Assembly (NCBI GenBank): GCA_020428105.1
Contig: JAGQNK010000005.1
Coordinates: 1 to 43,655 of the forward strand
From: Candidatus Saccharimonadota bacterium
Lineage (GTDB): Bacteria > Patescibacteriota > Saccharimonadia > Saccharimonadales > JAGQNK01
Reading direction: 5' to 3'
DNA length: 43,655 nucleotides
Below, one piece after another: positions 2,777 to 14,715 of the stretch. The translations under genes and the position numbers were made by a program. How positions within the stretch are numbered: position 1 is the stretch's first letter; every line of letters starts with the position of its first letter. The notes under the pieces were generated by a model that saw nothing but the letters and a program-made list of their open reading frames with translations, was not told the DNA's origin and did no database searches.

Positions 2777-5773
2777 ATGAGCAACAATAGTTCAACTGGC
2801 CGCAACATGGGCGGGCGGAATCGTAAAGGACGCAATACTTACACAACTCGCTCCGGTCAAACCATCAAGGTGAATCGTAGTCTAACCGACAAGATCCGTG
2901 CCCGAAAAGATGCATACGCACGTTCAAGGGCGGAACGATTAGCTGGCATGCCCAAATCTCGCTTTAAGCGCTTTTTCTACCGCCTGCACCCAAAGCGACT
3001 GTACAAATATTGGTTTAGCCGCGAAGGCTTTATTATGGGTCTCAAGATTACTGGAATAGGGCTCATTGTTGGCTTTTTGATGCTTGTAGGACTCTTTGCA
3101 TACTTCCGAAAAGACCTTCCAAACCTACGTGATATCTCGGGCAAGAATATTGGCGGAAGCATCAGATATTATGATCGTACTGGCAAAACATTGCTTTGGG
3201 AAGACTTCGATGCCGTAAAGCGCATTCCCGTAAAAGACGACCAAATATCTGACTACATCAAAAAAGCGACAATTGCTATTGAAGACAAAGACTTCTTTCA
3301 TCACGGTGGGTTTGATACACGTGGAATCATGCGTGCAGCCGTCAATAACGTCACCGGCGGAACCACTCAAGGTGCATCGACTATTACCCAACAATTAGTC
3401 CGCCTAACACAGAAAGAAGTCGGCAACGAACAAACATACAAACGAAAGGTCAAGGAGCTCATTCTCTCTGTAGAGCTGGAGCGGAACTATTCCAAAGATG
3501 AAATTCTCACTGGGTATCTGAACACTGCTCCTTATGGAAATGTCCAGTACGGCGTTGAGTCAGCTACCAGAGACTATTTCCAAAAATCAGCCAAAGATTT
3601 GACTCTTGATGAAGCGGCATTTTTGGCTGCTATCCCTCAATCACCTTCCTACTACTCGCCATATGGTCCAAGCTACAATCCTGAAGCTTTAGTAGGTCGC
3701 CAACATTATGTCCTTGATCTTATGGAACAACAAGGCATGATTAGCTCAGCCGACCGCGATAAAGCCAAGAAAGTCAACACTCTAAAGAAAGTCAAGAAAC
3801 CAAAACCCAAGTTTGCTGGTATTAAAGCTCCTTGGTTTGTAATGACGGCCAAAGAGTATCTAGAAAAAGAGTTTACTGCGGACACCGTTCAGCGTGGTGG
3901 ATGGAAAGTCACAACTACAGTAGACCTTAAGCTGCAGGAAATTGCAGAACGTAAAGTCAGCGAAGGTATTGGTCAGGTTGTTGCGCAAGGCGGAGATACT
4001 GCAGCCTTTGTAGCAGAAGATGTCGAAACCGGGCAAGTCGTTGCACTGGTCGGAGGTTCTGACTTTACGAATACTGAATATGGGCAAAACAACTACGCGC
4101 GTTATCGCCTACCTCCTGGGTCTAGCTTCAAACCATATGATTATTTAGCCTTGATTGAGAAGACCGATAACTTCGGTGCAGGTTCAGTATTGTATGATAC
4201 TCAAGCTCCATTACCTGGCTATCCCTGTACAAACAAGACCATGCCTCCGCCTCGCGGTCAAGGGAATTGTCTGTGGGACTACGACTTCCGATTCCCAGGG
4301 CCAGTAACCTTGCGTTATGCACTTGGTGGATCGCGAAACGTTCCGGCTGTAAAAGCAATGCTCACGGTAGGAGTTGATGAAACCATCAAAGTCGCCAATA
4401 GCCTTGGGCTTGCTAGTGGATACAAGTGCTATCAAGATGATCAGCTTACAAAAGAAGGTCAATGTTATGCATCCTCTGCAATAGGTGATGGTGCATACCT
4501 CAAGCTTGACGAGCATGTTCATGGGTACAGTACAATCTCGAGGAATGGAAACAAGATTCCGCAAACATATTTACTCAAAATAGAGGCGTCTGATGGTGAT
4601 GTACTAAAGGAGTGGAAACCACAAAAAGGCGAGCAAGTTGTTCGTGAAGACTCGGCATACATTGTTCATGACATGATGAGCGACCCGAACGCTAGTTATT
4701 TTCCTGCGGGACGTAAGCCACATAGATTTACTGGAAATAAAGGCACCTGGAAATTTGCTATGAAAACCGGAACTACAAATGATGCAAAAGACGGTTGGAT
4801 GATGGGCTTTTCTTCAAAGTATGCTGCGGGTGTTTGGGTGGGCTACCATAATCGACAGGTTGAAATGTCAGGAACGATGGAAAACATGACCCAGCCTATT
4901 TGGCAAGGTTGGATGCAGGAAGCTCACCAAGATCTTGAAGCCAAAGACTGGAAAAGACCAGCTAGTCTACAAACATTACCGGCCTTCGTCATCCGTAGTC
5001 ATGTAGGCATAGGTTCAGTTGAACCAAGTCCAGCCAATGACCTATTTCCATCATGGTTCAAGAAAAGGGTTGTTAGCAACAAGAAGCAAACCATAGATAT
5101 CATATCGAATAAGCTGGCAACCGACTGTACACCTTCTCGTGCACGAAAAGACACATTCGGCGGCGATGCTAGCAGCTTTTCGTCAGATCAATTCGTGAAT
5201 GGCGGAAGTAATGCCTCGAACAATGGGCAAAAAGACGATGTTCACAAATGTGATGATATCAAGCCAACTGTTAGGCTTAGCGTAAATCCTGCTGGCGGTA
5301 ACAAGTATCAGCTTGTAGCCGATGTTACTCAAGGCACACACCCACTCTCTAGTCCTTCTCATCCAGGAACCGTCGTGTTCAATGTCAACGGAAAAGAGGT
5401 GCACTCAGCCACAATCAACAATTCTGGTACTGTAACCTTCGTCTTTACTGCACAGAAAAGCGGCTCACAGTCTGTTTCGGCTACGGTAATCGACAGCGTA
5501 CTCTACGACTCGACGGACAGCGGATCGTTCAACACCAACAGCGGCAACAACTCAGATGACCAAAGTTTATCGGCTACAAGTTCTGGTGGCACTACACAGA
5601 TTACATGGTCCGGGGGAGATGGCAATGTCTCTATCTATAACCAAGATGGTAACTCAATCTGTAACGGTGGCGAGAGCGGTAACTGCTCCGTCAACAGTAG
5701 CAATGCACCAGTAGGTTCGTTCATCTATGCTGTCGACAACAGCGGCACATGGCCAAATGTTCAGGTCGACTAG
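2777..5773 (+). CDS. class A penicillin-binding protein (PBP1A-like)
   Basis: 998 residues. It is a bifunctional cell-wall synthase that polymerises lipid II glycan chains and cross-links the peptides outside the membrane. Order: basic cytoplasmic tail (1-85), one membrane segment (about 86-110), a GT51 transglycosylase domain with the catalytic EDKDFF (E169) and GASTITQQL, then a transpeptidase domain with SSFK (nucleophile S449), SRN (519-521) and KTGT (663-666). All key catalytic residues are present. After about residue 790 comes a Ser/Asn/Gly-rich linker, an Ig-like beta domain (about 835-915) and a second small beta-rich segment ending in PNVQVD, an unusual C-terminal extension that may bind the wall or another surface. 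It stands alone on the plus strand, divergent from tyrS and convergent with radA. Confidence 0.95.
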   Translation: MSNNSSTGRNMGGRNRKGRNTYTTRSGQTIKVNRSLTDKIRARKDAYARSRAERLAGMPKSRFKRFFYRLHPKRLYKYWFSREGFIMGLKITGIGLIVGFLMLVGLFAYFRKDLPNLRDISGKNIGGSIRYYDRTGKTLLWEDFDAVKRIPVKDDQISDYIKKATIAIEDKDFFHHGGFDTRGIMRAAVNNVTGGTTQGASTITQQLVRLTQKEVGNEQTYKRKVKELILSVELERNYSKDEILTGYLNTAPYGNVQYGVESATRDYFQKSAKDLTLDEAAFLAAIPQSPSYYSPYGPSYNPEALVGRQHYVLDLMEQQGMISSADRDKAKKVNTLKKVKKPKPKFAGIKAPWFVMTAKEYLEKEFTADTVQRGGWKVTTTVDLKLQEIAERKVSEGIGQVVAQGGDTAAFVAEDVETGQVVALVGGSDFTNTEYGQNNYARYRLPPGSSFKPYDYLALIEKTDNFGAGSVLYDTQAPLPGYPCTNKTMPPPRGQGNCLWDYDFRFPGPVTLRYALGGSRNVPAVKAMLTVGVDETIKVANSLGLASGYKCYQDDQLTKEGQCYASSAIGDGAYLKLDEHVHGYSTISRNGNKIPQTYLLKIEASDGDVLKEWKPQKGEQVVREDSAYIVHDMMSDPNASYFPAGRKPHRFTGNKGTWKFAMKTGTTNDAKDGWMMGFSSKYAAGVWVGYHNRQVEMSGTMENMTQPIWQGWMQEAHQDLEAKDWKRPASLQTLPAFVIRSHVGIGSVEPSPANDLFPSWFKKRVVSNKKQTIDIISNKLATDCTPSRARKDTFGGDASSFSSDQFVNGGSNASNNGQKDDVHKCDDIKPTVRLSVNPAGGNKYQLVADVTQGTHPLSSPSHPGTVVFNVNGKEVHSATINNSGTVTFVFTAQKSGSQSVSATVIDSVLYDSTDSGSFNTNSGNNSDDQSLSATSSGGTTQITWSGGDGNVSIYNQDGNSICNGGESGNCSVNSSNAPVGSFIYAVDNSGTWPNVQVD

Positions 5774-5845
5774 CAACCCACAGATAGTCAGCAATGCCAG
5801 TAATATTTACTCTGGACCGCAGTTCGATCTTAGGTAATAAGTATG

Positions 5846-7195
5846 CTATGTATTCTTACCAAGAAATGTATTCAGGGCAGTTCTAACATCACTGACAGGA
5901 GTATAACCTGATAATTTACTGCTTCCTCTAATCGTTGGTCCGATAGCCCCGTCGAAGCCAAGCTTCTTGGCCTCAGCTAGACGTTTTTCGGCAAACGGAA
6001 CATGCCTGACTTCACCAGAAAGTCCCAATTCTCCAAATACAACTACATTAGCTGATAGCTGGAGACCTTTTGAAGCCGATGCAATTGCCATGACCAGTGC
6101 AAGATCTGACGCAGGTTCGGTCAATCGTATTCCACCAACTACATTAATGTAGATATCTTGGTCAGCAAGATTAAGTTTAGTTCGTTTTTCTAACATGGCT
6201 ACTAACAAATTTACCCGGTTGAGATCAACACCACTTGCTGCTCGCTTCGGGTAACCGTAACTCGTTCTATTTACCAAAGCCTGGACTTCTACCAGAAGCG
6301 GTCTAGTGCCTTCTAGGGTTGCTAAAACGACTGAACCATCTGTAACCTGCCTTTCGGCCAATAGTGCTGCCGAGGGGTTATCTACAGGTCGCAATCCATT
6401 ATCTACCATCTCAAAGATCCCAGCCTCATTCGTGGAACCATAACGATTCTTGACAGCTCGAAGTACTTTAAATCCACCGTACCGATCACCCTCAAGCTGT
6501 AAAACAACATCTACTACATGCTCCAGTACCTTTGGTCCTGCAATCGAACCTTCTTTGGTAACATGGCCAACAATTATCAATGCTGTGTCTGTTTGCTTGG
6601 CTGCAGCAGTAAGTAAAGCTGTACTGTTAGTAATTTGGCTGACGTTGCCTGCAGCCGAAGAAATATCAGCACAAGAGATTGTTTGTATTGAATCAACAAT
6701 TACCAGGTTGTAAGTCCCTCGAGTAATTGTGGCTGCAATATCATCTGCACTGGTACTAGTCACGAGCTGCAACTTCTCACTGTCTGCTCCAAGTCGTTCC
6801 GCACGTAAACCAATCTGGTGAGATGATTCTTCTGCACTTACGTATAATACTGAGTAATCTTTACTTAGTGCATGAGCAATTTGAAGCAATAGGGTGCTCT
6901 TGCCAATGCCTGGCTGTCCGGCAATTAGGTTTACGCTTCCAGCAACAATACCACCGCCAAATACAGTATCAACCTCTGCGATACCAGAACTAATACGTTG
7001 ATGGTCTTTCTGGAGTGCCTTGGTAACTGACTCCGATTTTAATACGTGTCCACTTACTCCTATGTTGCCGGGGCTAATCTGAAGATGCTCTTCGATTGTA
7101 TTCCACTCCCCGCAGTTATAACACTTCCCGCTCCATACAGCACTCACCGCTCCACAATTTGAACAAATATAACTCTTGTTATCCTTCTTGGCCAT
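5846..7195 (-). CDS. radA: DNA repair protein RadA (Sms)
   Basis: 449 residues, normal length. RadA is a RecA-related branch-migration ATPase that helps process recombination intermediates. A C4 zinc finger is at the N-terminus (C11, C14, C25, C28). Walker A GQPGIGKST lies at 93-101, the family-defining KNRYG motif at 249-253, and a Lon-protease-like C-terminal domain from about 275 on. It follows the HExxH protein gene by 20 nt on the same strand, so co-transcription with the clpC block is likely. Converges with the penicillin-binding protein gene; no clear terminator is seen between them. Confidence 0.96.
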   Translation of the reverse strand: MAKKDNKSYICSNCGAVSAVWSGKCYNCGEWNTIEEHLQISPGNIGVSGHVLKSESVTKALQKDHQRISSGIAEVDTVFGGGIVAGSVNLIAGQPGIGKSTLLLQIAHALSKDYSVLYVSAEESSHQIGLRAERLGADSEKLQLVTSTSADDIAATITRGTYNLVIVDSIQTISCADISSAAGNVSQITNSTALLTAAAKQTDTALIIVGHVTKEGSIAGPKVLEHVVDVVLQLEGDRYGGFKVLRAVKNRYGSTNEAGIFEMVDNGLRPVDNPSAALLAERQVTDGSVVLATLEGTRPLLVEVQALVNRTSYGYPKRAASGVDLNRVNLLVAMLEKRTKLNLADQDIYINVVGGIRLTEPASDLALVMAIASASKGLQLSANVVVFGELGLSGEVRHVPFAEKRLAEAKKLGFDGAIGPTIRGSSKLSGYTPVSDVRTALNTFLGKNT

Positions 7196-7215
7196 ATTAG
7201 TTTAAGTTTAACAGA

Positions 7216-8166
7216 TTATAGCTTTGGACGACTATCTAGAGCTTGGTAAAGTTCTTGAGTTTCAAGAGCGACTTTTTTGTAATCATCAAGAAGCGAATTA
7301 TGGCGCTCTATCTGACTGTTCAATAAGTCGACTCTATGATTGAATGCATAAAATTTTGCATTGAACGTATCTGCTTTCTCCTTTGAGTCCACTTGTGCTC
7401 GCTCTTTAATCAAATTTTCTTGTTCGATTGTCAACTCCGCTTCTAGCTTGTCTATCTCATGTCGGAGTCCTGATATCTGTAACTCCAGAGCTGTCGCCTG
7501 ATTTCTTTGCTTTGTTAGAGCAGATTCGTACTTCTCCGAAAAAGCGACAACAGCTTGTCGGTTTGAAAAGTATTTTTCGTAATACTGTTCTAGCTCAGGC
7601 GAAAGATTCCGTACTTCTGTGGCAAGAATAGAATGAAGTTCGTTAGGCACCACGCCAGCATCTCGCTTTCGGTAACTAGCAATCGTTTCCTTGATCCTGT
7701 CATCTGTTATGTTCTTAAACATGGCATTGGTCATGCTGTCAATCTTAGACCTTTCTGCGTTATTCAAACGATCATAAGCAGCATGTAGCATCTCATGAGC
7801 CGCCGTTACTTGCTCTACGCCGTCCAAGCGTTGATCATCGATGTCAAACAAAAAGATACCTTTTGCCGATGAATAACACCCCAGAACGATTGTGTGCTCA
7901 TCGAAATCGCTACAATTCTGATTAAACGATGTTCTGTCATTTAGCTCTGGATGATAGACGTAGAACAATTTTCGGGCAAAATTGTTCATTGTAGTATCAA
8001 AAGCAAGCTGTTGTATCTGGATTGGCGGGTTGTAGTTGCGTAATTTGCTCCAATCGTAAATTTCTTGACGCTTATACCAAGCAAATGCAGACAACCCTAT
8101 AAGGATGATCAGCAATACATACACCGAAGCATGTCCGGATATTTTCCTATGTTCTGCTTTTAACAT
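7216..8166 (-). CDS. membrane-anchored HExxH protein with coiled-coil tail
   Basis: 316 residues, family not recognised. One N-terminal membrane segment (about 14-30) is followed by an extracytoplasmic domain with two cysteines (C85, C97) that could pair. AAHEMLHAAYDRL at 122-134 contains HEMLH (124-128), the zinc-metalloprotease signature HExxH. The last third (about 200-310) is a long charged helix with heptad-like spacing, probably a coiled coil. A membrane-attached metalloprotease is a reasonable reading, but the third zinc ligand cannot be assigned and protease activity is inference. It sits between clpC and radA, 17 nt after clpC and 20 nt before radA, and so probably shares the stress-responsive clpC transcript. 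TAGAAT and TATAGT boxes close to its ATG may give it a promoter of its own. Confidence 0.7.
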   Translation of the reverse strand: MLKAEHRKISGHASVYVLLIILIGLSAFAWYKRQEIYDWSKLRNYNPPIQIQQLAFDTTMNNFARKLFYVYHPELNDRTSFNQNCSDFDEHTIVLGCYSSAKGIFLFDIDDQRLDGVEQVTAAHEMLHAAYDRLNNAERSKIDSMTNAMFKNITDDRIKETIASYRKRDAGVVPNELHSILATEVRNLSPELEQYYEKYFSNRQAVVAFSEKYESALTKQRNQATALELQISGLRHEIDKLEAELTIEQENLIKERAQVDSKEKADTFNAKFYAFNHRVDLLNSQIERHNSLLDDYKKVALETQELYQALDSRPKL

Positions 8167-8183
8167 AACAACTATATTCTACA

Positions 8184-10688
8184 TCAATTACGCTGTTGAA
8201 ACTTGTGTGTTTCAGCCTCAGCAACATAAACAAGTTCATTGCGTTTGGCACTTATTCTAATGATGTCACCACGATGGTACTTATCATCCAGAAGCTCGTG
8301 TGCGATGTGATCTTCTATAGTATCAGCAATAAGCCTTCGCATTGGCCGAACACCGTTAGCAGCATCGTAACCTTGCTCTAGGAGAAAATTCTTTGCTGAA
8401 GCCGTAAGCTGTAAATCGATACCGTGCTTGACCAAGCGTTGTCGCAACTCATGTATCTGCAAATCAAGAATTTTGAGTACATTCTTTTTGGTCAAAGCAC
8501 GAAAGACTATTGTCTTGTCTATGCGGTTCAGAAACTCTGGCCGCATCATCTTCTTCAACTCATCAAACACCTTGCTCTTGTTTTGGGCATGTAATTCGTC
8601 TAGATCATCAAAGTCACCTTTATTGTCTGCATGAAAACCAAGGCTGGCCTCTTTCTGAAGCTTTTGAGCACCAATGTTACTTGTCATAATAATGATCGTA
8701 TTGGTAAAGTCAATTTTGCGACCTTTAGCATCTGTCAAATGCCCGTCCTCAAGTACTTGTAATAACATATTGAAAACATCAGGGTGAGCCTTTTCTATCT
8801 CATCAAAAAGTACCAGGCTGTATGGTTGTCGACGAATCTTGTCAGTTAGTTGACCCCCCTCATCATAGCCAACATACCCAGCTGGCGCCCCAACAAGGCG
8901 CGAAACGTTATGATGTTCACCAAACTCACTCATGTCAATCTTTACAAGAGCGTCTTCGCTACCAAAAAACTCTCTAGCCAATACCCGGGCCAGCTCGGTC
9001 TTCCCTACACCTGTTGGGCCCAAAAACACAAATGAACCAATCGGACGCTTACCACTGCCAATACCCACGCGATTTCGTCGAACAGCCTTAGCAACAGCCT
9101 CAACTGCTTCGTCCTGACCGATAACAAAATTTCTGAGAGTTTTTTCTAAATTCAACAAATACTTGGCCTCTGACCGAATGACCTTCGTAACAGGCACACC
9201 AGTCATTCTTGCAACAACGTCTGCAATGTCATCACTAGTAACTGTCAATCTATTCGCCGATTTTCCTTCGGACTCCAGCTTTTTTAACAATTCTTTGATT
9301 TGCGAAGCTCTTTGTTTGTGCTTGGCCGCACGTTCGTAATCTTCGCTATCAACAGCATCTTCTATACGTACGTTTACTAGCTTTAGCTCTTTTTGAAGCT
9401 TTCTGACTTCAGGAGGTGTCTTGCCCTTGTCTACCCTGAGATGCGCAGCGGTTTCATCTAGCAAATCAATTGCTTTGTCGGGCATGAAACGATCATTAAT
9501 GTAACGCTTTGCCAACGTCACGGTGTCTTCAAGGACTTCATCGCTAACCTGAACTCCGTGAAAGTCTTCATAATGTTTACGCAAGCCCTTCAATATTGCC
9601 AAGGTTTCTGCTGGAGTTGTTTCCGGTACTTGAATAGGCTGAAAGCGACGCTCGAGTGCAGCATCTTTTTCGACGTGTTTGGTATATTCTGAAGTTGTTG
9701 TAGCACCGATAACTTGAATTTTGCCACGTGCCAAAGCTGGCTTCAATATATTGCCTGCATCCATTGCGCCTTCGGCTGCACCGGCACCAACAATCAAATG
9801 CATTTCATCAATAAATACTATTGTTTTGTTATCATTCTCCAGCTCAGTCATGACTTTTTTGAGACGTTCCTCAAACTCACCGCGATACTTCGTGCCGGCA
9901 ATCATGCCAGCCAAATCAAGCATCACTATTCTTTTGTCTAACAAACTATCGGGAACGTCCTCAGCGACAATGCGCTGCGCCAAACCTTCGGCGATTGCAG
10001 TTTTACCTACGCCAGGTTCACCAATCAATACTGGATTATTCTTAGTGCGTCTATTCAAAATAGTGATTACGCGTCTGATTTGAGTCTCACGTCCAACCAC
10101 CGGATCAAGTTTTCCTGCAGCGGCTTGTGCGGTTAGATCAGTGCCAAAGAAATCCAAGGCAGTCTTTTTTGTTTTCTTGGCTTTTCGTTTTGAGGTTGAT
10201 GACCCGTTACTATCTTCGTCATATTGCTGTCGATTCAAAAATTGTTCCAGTTCAGAAACCAAACTATCAACGTCCACGTTCATATCTCTTAGCAAAACTG
10301 TAGCTCTGGCATTTTTTTGCGTCAGTACACTGTATAAAATATGCTCAGTACCGCAGAATTCTTGGGAGAAGTCCTGTGCTACATCATAGGCCATCTTGAG
10401 GGTCAACTTAGCGGTTTCACTCAAACCCTTTGCTCCCATATTGATAACCAACGTCTTAGGGGTAAGGTTTAAGGCCAATCGTGCTCGGTCCAAAGTAACG
10501 CCAGCACCTTCAAGAATCTTGGATCCCATGCTCGTATCCTGTGCCAATACCCCTAGCAATAAATGCTCAGTACCCACATAAGCACTGCCAAAACTCCTAG
10601 CAATTGCATCAGCATGCTTCAAGCTTTGCAAAGCATTATCAGTTAGGTGGTTCAAAAATTCTTGAAAGTCTGCATTCTGTGGTGTCAT
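8184..10688 (-). CDS. clpC: ATP-dependent Clp protease ATP-binding subunit ClpC
   Basis: 834 residues. This AAA+ unfoldase feeds substrates to the ClpP protease and acts in protein quality control. It has an N-terminal Clp repeat domain (about 1-145), AAA1 with Walker A GEPGVGKT (223-230), a middle coiled region with a UVR-like segment (about 415-450), and AAA2 with Walker A GPTGVGKT (557-564). An LGF sequence in AAA2 (SLGFHAD) matches the ClpP-docking loop, so a ClpP partner is expected, although clpP is not in the window. The start is set at 10688, not at the ATG 21 nt further upstream, because GGAGG lies 5 nt before it. A perfect CIRCE operator upstream implies HrcA control. Downstream neighbours are the HExxH protein and radA. 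Confidence 0.96.
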   Translation of the reverse strand: MTPQNADFQEFLNHLTDNALQSLKHADAIARSFGSAYVGTEHLLLGVLAQDTSMGSKILEGAGVTLDRARLALNLTPKTLVINMGAKGLSETAKLTLKMAYDVAQDFSQEFCGTEHILYSVLTQKNARATVLLRDMNVDVDSLVSELEQFLNRQQYDEDSNGSSTSKRKAKKTKKTALDFFGTDLTAQAAAGKLDPVVGRETQIRRVITILNRRTKNNPVLIGEPGVGKTAIAEGLAQRIVAEDVPDSLLDKRIVMLDLAGMIAGTKYRGEFEERLKKVMTELENDNKTIVFIDEMHLIVGAGAAEGAMDAGNILKPALARGKIQVIGATTTSEYTKHVEKDAALERRFQPIQVPETTPAETLAILKGLRKHYEDFHGVQVSDEVLEDTVTLAKRYINDRFMPDKAIDLLDETAAHLRVDKGKTPPEVRKLQKELKLVNVRIEDAVDSEDYERAAKHKQRASQIKELLKKLESEGKSANRLTVTSDDIADVVARMTGVPVTKVIRSEAKYLLNLEKTLRNFVIGQDEAVEAVAKAVRRNRVGIGSGKRPIGSFVFLGPTGVGKTELARVLAREFFGSEDALVKIDMSEFGEHHNVSRLVGAPAGYVGYDEGGQLTDKIRRQPYSLVLFDEIEKAHPDVFNMLLQVLEDGHLTDAKGRKIDFTNTIIIMTSNIGAQKLQKEASLGFHADNKGDFDDLDELHAQNKSKVFDELKKMMRPEFLNRIDKTIVFRALTKKNVLKILDLQIHELRQRLVKHGIDLQLTASAKNFLLEQGYDAANGVRPMRRLIADTIEDHIAHELLDDKYHRGDIIRISAKRNELVYVAEAETHKFQQRN

Positions 10689-10693
10689 ATTGA

Positions 10694-10698
10694 CCTCC
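10694..10698 (-). promoter_or_regulatory. strong ribosome binding site of clpC
   Basis: GGAGG followed by TCAAT and ATG on the minus strand. It decides the clpC start (10688) over the in-frame ATG at 10709. Confidence 0.85.
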
Positions 10699-10794
10699 AA
10701 TCGACACAAATTCGTGATTGCTTACTGGTGCAAATCTGTTCTTTGCCCCATGTCAACACTGTGTTGTTAAAGGCGAATGAAATCCGCTACATAC

Positions 10795-10824
10795 ATCATA
10801 ACAAAATTAGCACTCTCGTTGCAA
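10795..10824 (-). promoter_or_regulatory. clpC promoter overlapped by CIRCE
   Basis: Minus strand: TTGCAA (10819-10824), 18 nt, then TATGAT (10795-10800), preceded by TGT so that it is also an extended -10 (TGTTATGAT). The -35 lies in the spacer of the CIRCE element and the downstream CIRCE arm occupies the promoter spacer, so a bound HrcA dimer would block RNA polymerase. The transcript would carry a leader of about 100 nt. Confidence 0.65.
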
Positions 10825-10833
10825 GAGTGCTAA
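10807..10833. promoter_or_regulatory. CIRCE operator (HrcA binding site)
   Basis: TTAGCACTC (10807-10815), a 9-nt spacer, then GAGTGCTAA (10825-10833). This matches the CIRCE consensus at all 18 arm positions with the standard spacing. CIRCE is the operator of the heat-shock repressor HrcA. It lies 119 nt upstream of the clpC start and just past the end of nusA, so the target is clpC. Confidence 0.93.
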
Positions 10834-10851
10834 TTGAAAATACTAACGGCT

Positions 10852-12021
10852 TTATTGTTCGTCGGTACCGTGTTGCTCGATTGCCTCAAGTAGACTGCTC
10901 TCAAGCTGCTCTTTCTTCTTCAACTTTGGTGCTTGCCTAGGCTTCATCTCTTCCTGGACGGAAGGCTGTACTGCAGGTTTTTCTCGTTCGGCGCTGATGT
11001 CAATCTCATATCCACACAGCTTGCTGGCTAACCGTACGTTTTGGCCCGCTTTACCTATAGCAATACTCAATTGATCCTCGGGCACAAAAACTTTGGCCTT
11101 CTTAGTAGCGTCATCAAGTTCGACGCGCAATACTTTCGTTGGTGACAGAGCATTAACAATATATTCCTTAGAATTATCAGACCAGACGACAATGTCAATT
11201 TTTTCTTGCTCCCCAATTTCACTCATAACGGCATTCACACGTGTCCCGTGACCACCCACGAATGTGCCTACCGGATCAATTCCCTGATTTGCGCTTGCTA
11301 CGGCAATTTTGCTACGCACACCAGCCTCACGCGCAATACCTTTGATTTCAACAGATCCATTCTCCATTTCTGGAACTTCAGCCCTAAATAGCCACTCGAC
11401 AAACTGAGCACTACCGCGCGACACAACAAGCTGCGGGCCACGTGGACCGCGCTCAACATCCTTCAAAAATACCTTGATACGTTGACCTGGGTAATACCGT
11501 TCACCTTGGATCTGCTCGCTCATTGGCATAATGCCCTGAGCTTTACCCAGATCCACACGTACTATACGCCCCTCTACGCGACCAACAATACCGTTGATAA
11601 CAGTTCCAATCTTGTCATCATATTCTTCCATAATGATTTCGCGTTCGGCTTCACGGAGGCGCTGCAGAATCACTTGCTTTGCGGTTTGAGCTGCCACCCT
11701 TCCAAAGTTACTGATATTTTCATGCAACTCAATCATATCGCCAATTTGTGCATTCTTTTTCATAACCTGGGCATCGGTCAAGCTTATCTCAAAATGCTCA
11801 TCTCCTACTTTCTCGACAACCTCTTTGGTGACAAAGGCATCAACATCACCGGTATTCAGATTCATGCTTACACGAACTTCTTGCTCACGATCACCAAAAT
11901 CACGCCTATATGCGGCCGCCAATGCCTGTTCTACGACTTCTTGTACCGTTTCCTCCGGTAGATTTTTCTCCTCAGCAATAGTTTTGAGCGCCAAGGCAAG
12001 TTGCTTGATATCTAAATCCAT
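10852..12021 (-). CDS. nusA: transcription termination/antitermination factor NusA
   Basis: 389 residues, within the range of NusA proteins lacking the extra C-terminal acidic repeats. NusA binds RNA polymerase and nascent RNA and modulates pausing and termination. It has the N-terminal polymerase-binding domain (1-130), an S1 domain (about 135-205, with GRVEGRIVRVDLGKAQGIMP), then two KH domains (about 225-350, including VRSKIAVAS and the GxxG-type IAIGKAGQNVRLASKL). The C-terminal 40 residues are charged and low complexity. A ribosome binding site (GGAGA, 5 nt from the ATG) fixes the start. The gene precedes clpC, but the 140-nt gap with promoter and CIRCE suggests separate control. A hairpin with a T-run lies in its leader. 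Confidence 0.95.
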   Translation of the reverse strand: MDLDIKQLALALKTIAEEKNLPEETVQEVVEQALAAAYRRDFGDREQEVRVSMNLNTGDVDAFVTKEVVEKVGDEHFEISLTDAQVMKKNAQIGDMIELHENISNFGRVAAQTAKQVILQRLREAEREIIMEEYDDKIGTVINGIVGRVEGRIVRVDLGKAQGIMPMSEQIQGERYYPGQRIKVFLKDVERGPRGPQLVVSRGSAQFVEWLFRAEVPEMENGSVEIKGIAREAGVRSKIAVASANQGIDPVGTFVGGHGTRVNAVMSEIGEQEKIDIVVWSDNSKEYIVNALSPTKVLRVELDDATKKAKVFVPEDQLSIAIGKAGQNVRLASKLCGYEIDISAEREKPAVQPSVQEEMKPRQAPKLKKKEQLESSLLEAIEQHGTDEQ

Positions 12022-12063
12022 ACTTTCTCCTTCGTTTTAGTTATCTAGTGGATATAGCTCATG

Positions 12064-12088
12064 AAAAAAGTCGACCTGCCGGCCGACT
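12064..12088 (-). terminator. GC-rich hairpin plus T6 in the nusA leader
   Basis: On the minus strand AGTCGGCC, loop GGCA, GGTCGACT form an 8-bp stem with one G-U pair, followed directly by six T. It has the form of an intrinsic terminator or attenuator and lies only about 45 nt before nusA and about 5 nt after the predicted transcription start. It may be a NusA-sensitive attenuator or a 5' stabilising stem-loop. It could also stop antisense read-through from the rnhB-yraN operon. Confidence 0.6.
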
Positions 12089-12099
12089 CATACAATTCT

Positions 12100-12128
12100 A
12101 TATTACACTGAAGCTAATCTAGTGTCAA
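12100..12128 (-). promoter_or_regulatory. nusA promoter
   Basis: TTGACA (12123-12128), 17 nt, TAATAT (12100-12105) on the minus strand: a consensus -35 with a good -10 and ideal spacing. The start of transcription would fall near 12093, immediately before the hairpin. Confidence 0.65.
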
Positions 12129-12159
12129 TCAACCCACGTCTATTGTAGAATATCAGCAT

Positions 12160-14715
12160 ATGGGAAAAGAAGTAAGACGGCTGTTTGCTGAGTTCCAGCC
12201 TACGAACTACAAAATTGAACTCTCCCCAAATCATGAAAAGAAAACTTTTACAGGTAAAGTACAGATTCTTGGCCAGAAAGTCGGACGCCCCAGCCAACGG
12301 ATTACTTTTCACCAGAATGACCTAAACATAACCAATGCAAGCATTACAAGACACGATAAAGCTGGTAACTTTGAACAATCCGTAGGGAGGATAAACTGCC
12401 ATAAAAAGTTTGACGAAGTTCGGCTACACACCGAAGCCATGCTATATCCGGGCAACTACACAGTTACACTTGAATTTTCTGGCAAAATCACCAACAACAT
12501 GAACGGCATATACCCCTGCGTCTTTGAAATCGACGGCAACAAGCAAGAATTGTTAGCCACACAGTTTGAAAGTCATCATGCAAGAGAAGTCTTTCCATGT
12601 ATAGACGAGCCAGAGGCCAAGGCTACGTTCGATCTCAGCCTTACAACCCCAAAAGAATCAACGGTACTCGCAAACACACCGATAGAATCACAGAAAACCA
12701 ACGGAGAACTTCAAACCACCACATTCGAAACAACGCCAAAGATGTCTACGTATTTGCTTGCGTTTGTTTATGGAAATTTGCGCTACCTAGAGGCCAAAAC
12801 TAAAGATGGAGTAATTGTACGAACATACTCGACTCCTGACAATGTCGAATTCACTCGATTTGCGCTGGATACTGCCGTAAAAACACTTGAGTTCTACAAC
12901 CAGTACTTTGATATACCCTATCCACTTGAAAAATGCGACATGGTCGCCTTGCCAGACTTTGCCTCAGGTGCAATGGAAAACTGGGGTCTTATAACTTACC
13001 GCGAGCAAGTCATGTTGGTTGACCCCAAAAATACCTCGCTTGGTACAAAGCAATACGTAGCAATGGTGGTCGCACATGAGCTAGCTCATCAATGGTTTGG
13101 CAACCTAGTAACAATGCGATGGTGGACTGATCTATGGCTCAACGAAGGCTTCGCCAGCTGGATTGAGTATCTTGCAGTTGACCACCTATTCCCAGAGTGG
13201 CAGATGTGGACGCAGTTTGCAGTTGACGAACAGCAACGTGCCTTTAGGCTCGACGCACTGGAGCATACTCACCCCATAGAAGTTCCAGTGCGTCATCCGG
13301 ACGAAATACGCACGATTTTTGACACTATTAGCTACAGCAAAGGTGCTAGCATCATCCATATGCTAAACCAATACCTAACCCCTGTCGTATTTCGTGACGG
13401 GTTGCGACACTATCTAAAACGCCATCAGTACAGCAATACCGATACTATAGACCTATGGACCGCACTACAAGAAACCTCAGGCAAACCAGTCAAAGACTTT
13501 ATGCATTCCTGGACATCACAACCGGGCTTTCCTCTCCTTAACGCTTCAATGCAGAAGAATTCAATAACTCTTGAACAAGAACGATTTTATCTCAATCCAG
13601 AACAAAAACGAGATACAACAATCTGGCCAATTGCTTTGCTTGCGGATAACAATGGCTTGCCAGAATTATTTCAATCACACAAGACCTCTATAACTATCAA
13701 TGATCCTTCAAGCCTAAAGTTAAACAAGGGACAGAGTGGCTTTTATCGTACAGCATACAGTACCGACTTGTTGAATAATCTTGGTAGCCAAATTGCCGAA
13801 AACAAACTCTCCCCGCTAGACAGGCTTGGAATTTTGAATGACCTATTTGAAACTGCCAAAGCAGGCAGAACCAAGATGTCTGATGCCCTAAAGTTTCTGC
13901 AGTATTTCAAAGACGAGTCTGACAATGCCGTTTGGGATGTGATCACATCAGGTTTGCTCTCAACACGTTCAGTAATGAACGACGAAGACTTGCGAGAAAG
14001 CATGAAACCATATATCCGCCGTTTGGTCGCAAAGCAGCTGAATCGCCTTGGTTGGGACAAAATTGATGGTGAATCACACTTCGACCAATTGCTCCGTCCC
14101 ACCGTTCTCGGGCTAGCCGCGGGTGCAGATGAAGAAGCTGTCGTAGCTGAATGTCTGAAGCGCTTCGACGGCATGAAAAAAGCAGAGAATATCGACCCGA
14201 ACTTGCGTAGTGTCATCTATGCAACCGCCGTTCGCCTAGGTGATGAGAAAACTTTCGACAAACTCTTTGCTATGCACGAAACCAGCATTAACAGTGAGGA
14301 GAGAACCACCATCGCTTCTGCATTAACTGGTTTTAGACAGCCAAACCTATACATGCGGGCACTTAATCTTATCAACACAGAATCGGTACGTCATCAAGAC
14401 GTTTCGTACTGGATTGCCTACAGCTTCGCTAACCGCTTTGCCAAGAAAGCAACCTGGGAGTGGATGAAAGATCACTGGGACTGGTTAGCCAAAAACCTCG
14501 GTTCCGATCTCAGCTTTTACCGGTTCCCGATGTTTGCGGCCAACGCGTTTTCTGATCGAGATTTCTTGGATGAATTCAAAGAATTCTTTCTGCCAAAAAT
14601 CGAACCAGCCTTTGAGCGATCCGTCAACCAAGGCATAGAAGTCATTACATGGCAGTCAGCCTGGAGAGAACGAGACCTGGATTCTGTGAAGAAATTCTTT
14701 ACAGATCATCAATAA
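12160..14715 (+). CDS. M1 family aminopeptidase (PepN-like)
   Basis: 851 residues, typical of M1 zinc aminopeptidases, which remove N-terminal residues from peptides in the cytosol. The N-terminal beta-domain is followed by the substrate-binding GAMENW (270-275) and the zinc site HELAH (306-310) with the third ligand in WLNEGFASW (E329). The C-terminal half is the helical ERAP1-like domain. No signal peptide is present. For an organism with few biosynthetic genes it would supply amino acids from peptides (inference). A TAGAAT box ends 8 nt before the ATG with no Shine-Dalgarno sequence, suggesting a leaderless mRNA. The 3' end overlaps yraN by 17 nt, tail to tail. Confidence 0.95.
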   Translation: MGKEVRRLFAEFQPTNYKIELSPNHEKKTFTGKVQILGQKVGRPSQRITFHQNDLNITNASITRHDKAGNFEQSVGRINCHKKFDEVRLHTEAMLYPGNYTVTLEFSGKITNNMNGIYPCVFEIDGNKQELLATQFESHHAREVFPCIDEPEAKATFDLSLTTPKESTVLANTPIESQKTNGELQTTTFETTPKMSTYLLAFVYGNLRYLEAKTKDGVIVRTYSTPDNVEFTRFALDTAVKTLEFYNQYFDIPYPLEKCDMVALPDFASGAMENWGLITYREQVMLVDPKNTSLGTKQYVAMVVAHELAHQWFGNLVTMRWWTDLWLNEGFASWIEYLAVDHLFPEWQMWTQFAVDEQQRAFRLDALEHTHPIEVPVRHPDEIRTIFDTISYSKGASIIHMLNQYLTPVVFRDGLRHYLKRHQYSNTDTIDLWTALQETSGKPVKDFMHSWTSQPGFPLLNASMQKNSITLEQERFYLNPEQKRDTTIWPIALLADNNGLPELFQSHKTSITINDPSSLKLNKGQSGFYRTAYSTDLLNNLGSQIAENKLSPLDRLGILNDLFETAKAGRTKMSDALKFLQYFKDESDNAVWDVITSGLLSTRSVMNDEDLRESMKPYIRRLVAKQLNRLGWDKIDGESHFDQLLRPTVLGLAAGADEEAVVAECLKRFDGMKKAENIDPNLRSVIYATAVRLGDEKTFDKLFAMHETSINSEERTTIASALTGFRQPNLYMRALNLINTESVRHQDVSYWIAYSFANRFAKKATWEWMKDHWDWLAKNLGSDLSFYRFPMFAANAFSDRDFLDEFKEFFLPKIEPAFERSVNQGIEVITWQSAWRERDLDSVKKFFTDHQ

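Follow-up and report, generated by a model that had tools for sequence, protein, structure and literature searches.

The window (the whole stretch of DNA that was analysed, 43,655 nucleotides long) contains, on its minus strand, a palindromic CIRCE operator with the nusA stop codon (10852) on one side and the clpC start on the other. The features of the locus are the following, all of them read on the minus strand.

10852..12021, minus strand: nusA, upstream of the operator
10807..10833, minus strand: CIRCE operator (palindrome), found by pattern match and recurring before clpC in relatives
10819..10824, minus strand: -35-like hexamer TTGCAA, formed by the CIRCE spacer and the first base of the distal arm, a placement common to most relatives (TTGAC/TTGCA)
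10795..10800, minus strand: -10-like hexamer TATGAT, extended (TG before it), found by the promoter scan
10694..10698, minus strand: Shine-Dalgarno sequence GGAGG, 5 nt before the ATG at 10688
8184..10688, minus strand: clpC, encoding an 834-aa Clp ATPase of the Hsp100 type (ClpA/ClpB/ClpC superfamily), with two Clp_N repeats, two AAA modules and D2-small
7216..8166, minus strand: HExxH membrane protein with a coiled coil and one N-terminal hydrophobic segment; HExxH at 7783-7797
5846..7195, minus strand: radA/sms, final gene of the putative clpC operon

The clpC locus, its operator and its promoter

Read on the clpC strand, the operator is TTAGCACTC-N9-GAGTGCTAA (full site TTAGCACTCTCGTTGCAAGAGTGCTAA), with no mismatch over 18 of 18 arm positions, so the perfect CIRCE claimed at clpC in the original prediction is confirmed. 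The span given there, 10795-10833, is wider than the element: the operator occupies 10807-10833 only, and a start at 10795 includes the -10 hexamer. The window holds no second match with up to three mismatches, and 100 dinucleotide shuffles of it gave none, which sets the number expected by chance at zero. An Rfam search of positions 5700-12300 matched no family.

The operator lies 118 nt from the clpC ATG. This start is best set at 10688 because GGAGG precedes it; the alternative start of a longer open reading frame, TTG at 10709, has no comparable ribosome-binding site. No ClpB-length middle domain was found by name in the 834-aa Clp ATPase, which neighbourhood and similarity together indicate to be ClpC. 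The genes clpC, HExxH and radA follow one another on the same strand, separated by 17 and 20 nt, in an order retained in most genera of the order, and the last two are predicted to be co-transcribed with clpC; the HExxH protein, as a product of this putative operon, would then be heat-inducible. This protein matched no family in Pfam or NCBIfam. The HExxH is present in 50 of its 52 homologues, with an invariant Glu 52 residues past the first His, and D38, C85, C97, E176, Y196 and R203 are also invariant. The motif together with the invariant Glu would suit a zinc peptidase, which makes the protein a candidate for an undescribed family of Saccharibacteria membrane metallopeptidases.

The promoter scan places a sigma-70-like promoter, TTGCAA-N18-TATGAT, on the minus strand at 10824-10795, with its -35 hexamer within the operator, and the predicted overlap between CIRCE and the clpC promoter thus holds. 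The -35 of the window is weak compared with the TTGAC of relatives. When the best promoter was taken at each of 62 operators, the -35 started at CIRCE offset 9-13 in 52 of them, and promoter totals were mostly at least 10 of 12, as compared with mostly 7-8 in shuffles. TTGAC occurs in three spacer registers, at 9, 11 or 13, which indicates that the -35 stays inside the operator although its precise position there shifts. At the hrcA, clpP and dnaK sites of the genome, the spacer likewise starts with TTGAC and is followed by TATGAT- or TAGAAT-like words. This placement of the -35 fits repression by promoter occlusion.

HrcA and the CIRCE sites of the genome

The absence of hrcA had been named as one of two findings that would refute the original prediction, but the gene was found, over the Pfam cut-off, in this genome of 910 kb (63 contigs, 99.6% complete). 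There is a single copy on contig C57 (G000:C57; L119:4276-4983). Its product of about 235 aa begins MTDRQKQIL, matches T. maritima HrcA (1STZ) over residues 1-84, and exceeds the cut-offs of both HrcA and HrcA_DNA-bdg in Pfam, with winged-helix and C-terminal domains. Its NCBIfam TIGR00331 score falls below the cut-off (180.8 against 197.2 bits) because the protein is shorter. In an alignment to a five-member profile, 1STZ residues 16-131 correspond to profile positions 2-114 and residues 244-286, weakly, to 143-186, which implies that about 85 internal residues of T. maritima HrcA are missing here; the allostery of such a protein may differ. The compact HrcA is found in 129 of the 152 genomes of the phylum sample (open frames mostly of about 230-265 aa).

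A scan of the 910-kb genome for further CIRCE sites matched the groESL (C49:11123, no mismatch), clpP (C33:4735, one mismatch), hrcA-grpE (C57:8228, one mismatch), dnaK (two sites, C57:9881 and C57:9928, two mismatches each) and dnaJ (C57:14427, three mismatches) genes. The original prediction had suggested looking at groES-groEL, dnaK and grpE, and did not foresee clpP in the regulon. With up to two mismatches, six sites (the one at clpC included) were found versus none with the reversed pattern, and with up to three, seven versus two; the dnaJ site therefore rests on its position, since the reversed control also matches at three mismatches. Through these shared sites, HrcA appears to govern both the folding genes of class I and the Clp proteolysis genes of class III, and very probably it also controls clpC and clpP in this Saccharibacterium.

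Conservation of the operator in the class and beyond

The class was used for comparison, the family of the organism being too small with two genomes only. One clpC locus was taken per genus, giving 71 usable loci, and the 300 nt before clpC were scanned. CIRCE with up to three mismatches was found in 57 of the 71 genera, which upholds the predicted recurrence before clpC; the second refuting finding named in advance, failure to recur in relatives, was therefore not obtained either. The best match had no mismatch at 30 loci, one at 8, two at 17, three at 2, four at 1 and at least seven at 13; at the same 71 loci, 1420 first-order shuffles never gave fewer than four mismatches and 71 reversed scans never fewer than six. 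Considering whole genomes, 142 of 147 in the class have ClpC orthologues and 142 of 147 have CIRCE with up to one mismatch, while the reversed control gave zero in every row. Within the order, CIRCE stands before clpC in 48 of 49 fetched genomes and in the window. A scan of public contigs yielded 15 loci, mainly from Saccharibacteria, and the Candidatus Saccharibacteria loci L123, L125-L129 and L131 have CIRCE before clpC. The arms stay fixed among relatives while the spacer letters vary, as between the window and its genus mate. That genus mate also has, at locus L010 (G001:C6:2502-2528), a CIRCE-like palindrome with a symmetric change, TTAGCACCC...GGGTGCTAA.

In five genera of family f17 (L094, L106, L107, L109, L113), CIRCE lies before nusA, 1.4-1.6 kb upstream of clpC; nusA, clpC and radA would then form a single heat-shock operon, and the elongation factor NusA would come under heat-shock control. 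Ten of the 71 show no CIRCE with up to three mismatches in front of either clpC or nusA, and one of these ten has a match with four. Four near-complete genomes of the same order (G031, G106, G124, G120) have no detectable ClpC, and G106 also has no CIRCE at up to one mismatch.

The clpP gene follows the same pattern. CIRCE lies close upstream of clpP at 22 of 30 loci. In six of the eight cases where clpP lacks its own site (G019, G028, G047, G052, G065, G066), clpP follows clpC, either immediately or past the HExxH gene, and CIRCE before clpC is not accompanied by a second one. Where clpP is further from clpC and has its own promoter (G058, G060, G061, G090, G143), it keeps its own CIRCE. The remaining two of the eight (G048, G050) belong to genus g16 and lack CIRCE at clpC too. 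In this genus (L058, L233, L234), clpC and clpP are both without CIRCE and five to six other CIRCE sites are kept, as if the Clp genes had left the HrcA regulon together.

The comparison was extended within the phylum Patescibacteria. Among 40 Clp ATPase loci from other Patescibacteria, about 10 have CIRCE upstream, some of them perfect, and it is missing from several sister families in which nusA and clpC are adjacent. The association of CIRCE with Clp ATPases is thus near-constant in the class and scattered outside it. At six loci from other Patescibacteria (L152, L153, L154, L157, L164, L165), the Clp ATPase has an additional CxxC motif at its N-terminus (CxxC...RPA) resembling the ClpE/McsA zinc finger, and several such loci have CIRCE directly upstream.

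Proposed mechanism, rival readings and relation to known systems

We consider it highly likely that the palindrome is an HrcA operator at which HrcA covers the clpC promoter, and that stress release would induce clpC with the rest of the regulon. In unstressed cells, an HrcA dimer on CIRCE would mask the -35 of the only convincing clpC promoter and block RNA polymerase. When heat or unfolded proteins stress the cell, HrcA would be released, and clpC, the HExxH gene and radA would be switched on, with clpP, groESL, hrcA-grpE, dnaK and dnaJ induced together with clpC. We infer HrcA binding, repression, stress release, downstream co-transcription and GroEL feedback from the sequences compared here, and the HrcA/CIRCE interpretation in the original prediction is, on this comparative basis, supported overall.

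An inverted repeat just past a stop codon could also be merely the nusA terminator, or a terminator resembling CIRCE. Fully folded, the repeat has a 14-bp stem and a 3-nt loop, and TTTTGTT comes next on the strand of nusA, a structure that the scan rates as terminator-like, and the downstream flanks of relatives are T-rich; the upstream flanks, however, are A-rich to the same degree, as expected for a palindromic operator in AT-rich DNA. Conservation of the arms letter by letter goes beyond what stem pairing demands, the same word precedes unrelated heat-shock genes, and in the f17 genera the element stands before nusA and not after it, all of which makes this reading very unlikely. An intrinsic nusA terminator would have a GC-rich stem, variable in sequence, ahead of a T run; here the stem and a T-rich tail are present, but the arm letters are fixed and the element is relocated in f17. 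The site may have a second role as a terminator, and this reading is judged secondary. That the palindrome should be a functionless product of chance is hardly conceivable when zero sites are expected, the spacers change around fixed arms and the element recurs class-wide. It is improbable, though less so than either of these, that CIRCE at clpC works only with a second repressor, as HrcA does with CtsR on some streptococcal and staphylococcal genes. In some Firmicutes, clp genes are known to be under dual control of this kind, according to work cited in PMC3842655 and PMC6305308; against it, the CtsR models PF05848 and PF17727 gave no match in this genome, a weak argument because the search, of low sensitivity, matched only one control genome and missed B. 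subtilis.

Returning to repression by HrcA at clpC, the operator itself is, by its sequence, an ordinary HrcA/CIRCE site, and it is the predicted regulon that is unusual and lineage-wide. In the better-studied Gram-positives, clpC and clpP usually answer to CtsR, and the clpC operon of Firmicutes has the order ctsR-mcsA-mcsB-clpC-radA, under CtsR. In B. subtilis the repressor gene ctsR is the first gene of this operon (a reference in PMC5506225), and in bifidobacteria ClgR acts at clpC (PMC9004370). The locus described here shares with the Firmicutes operon the position of radA after clpC, but has nusA in front, lacks ctsR-mcsAB, carries the intervening HExxH gene and has CIRCE in place of the CtsR boxes.

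CIRCE typically controls groE and dnaK (PMC3842655). The class I dnaK/groE regulon of B. subtilis resembles the present one in its 9-9-9 operator, its hrcA-grpE-dnaK-dnaJ cluster and groESL with CIRCE, whereas here clpC and clpP are included, dnaK and dnaJ have CIRCE sites of their own, and HrcA has about 235 aa against about 340. The HrcA regulon of Mollicutes, which comprises dnaK, clpB and lon (PMC5138195), is alike in belonging to a reduced genome and in placing CIRCE on a Hsp100 ATPase and a protease, although these are clpB and lon there and clpC and clpP here. In streptococci the HrcA and CtsR regulons overlap partly (PMC6305308), and in S. salivarius clpP is likewise preceded by CIRCE and under HrcA (Chastanet and Msadek 2003, as cited in PMC3842655); its control is dual with CtsR, in contrast to the genome studied here, where the low-sensitivity search found no CtsR match. 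HrcA alone appears to cover targets that HrcA and CtsR share in Firmicutes. More tentatively, and with somewhat less than even confidence, we propose that the compact HrcA, without much of the stretch that joins its DNA-binding and C-terminal domains, is the only repressor of the heat-shock response and has taken over the whole Clp protease regulon (clpC, clpP), together with an undescribed, heat-inducible family of membrane metalloproteases (the HExxH protein), in a lineage-specific, merged class I/III response.

In the literature, where coverage of subscription journals was thin, we found no paper joining CIRCE, HrcA and Saccharibacteria, and none with CIRCE 'upstream of clpC'. Transcriptomics of TM7x has reported that chaperones shift together on host contact, the regulators not being analysed (PMC10768705). 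TM7x is a cultured and genetically tractable Saccharibacterium in which the prediction can be tested directly. The results provide a predicted stress regulon for a group of ultrasmall episymbionts in which few regulators are known, and the position of an uncharacterised HExxH membrane protein beside ClpC in a putative stress operon suggests a function for it. They also indicate that Clp proteolysis can be placed under HrcA/CIRCE across a whole class, with CtsR apparently absent.
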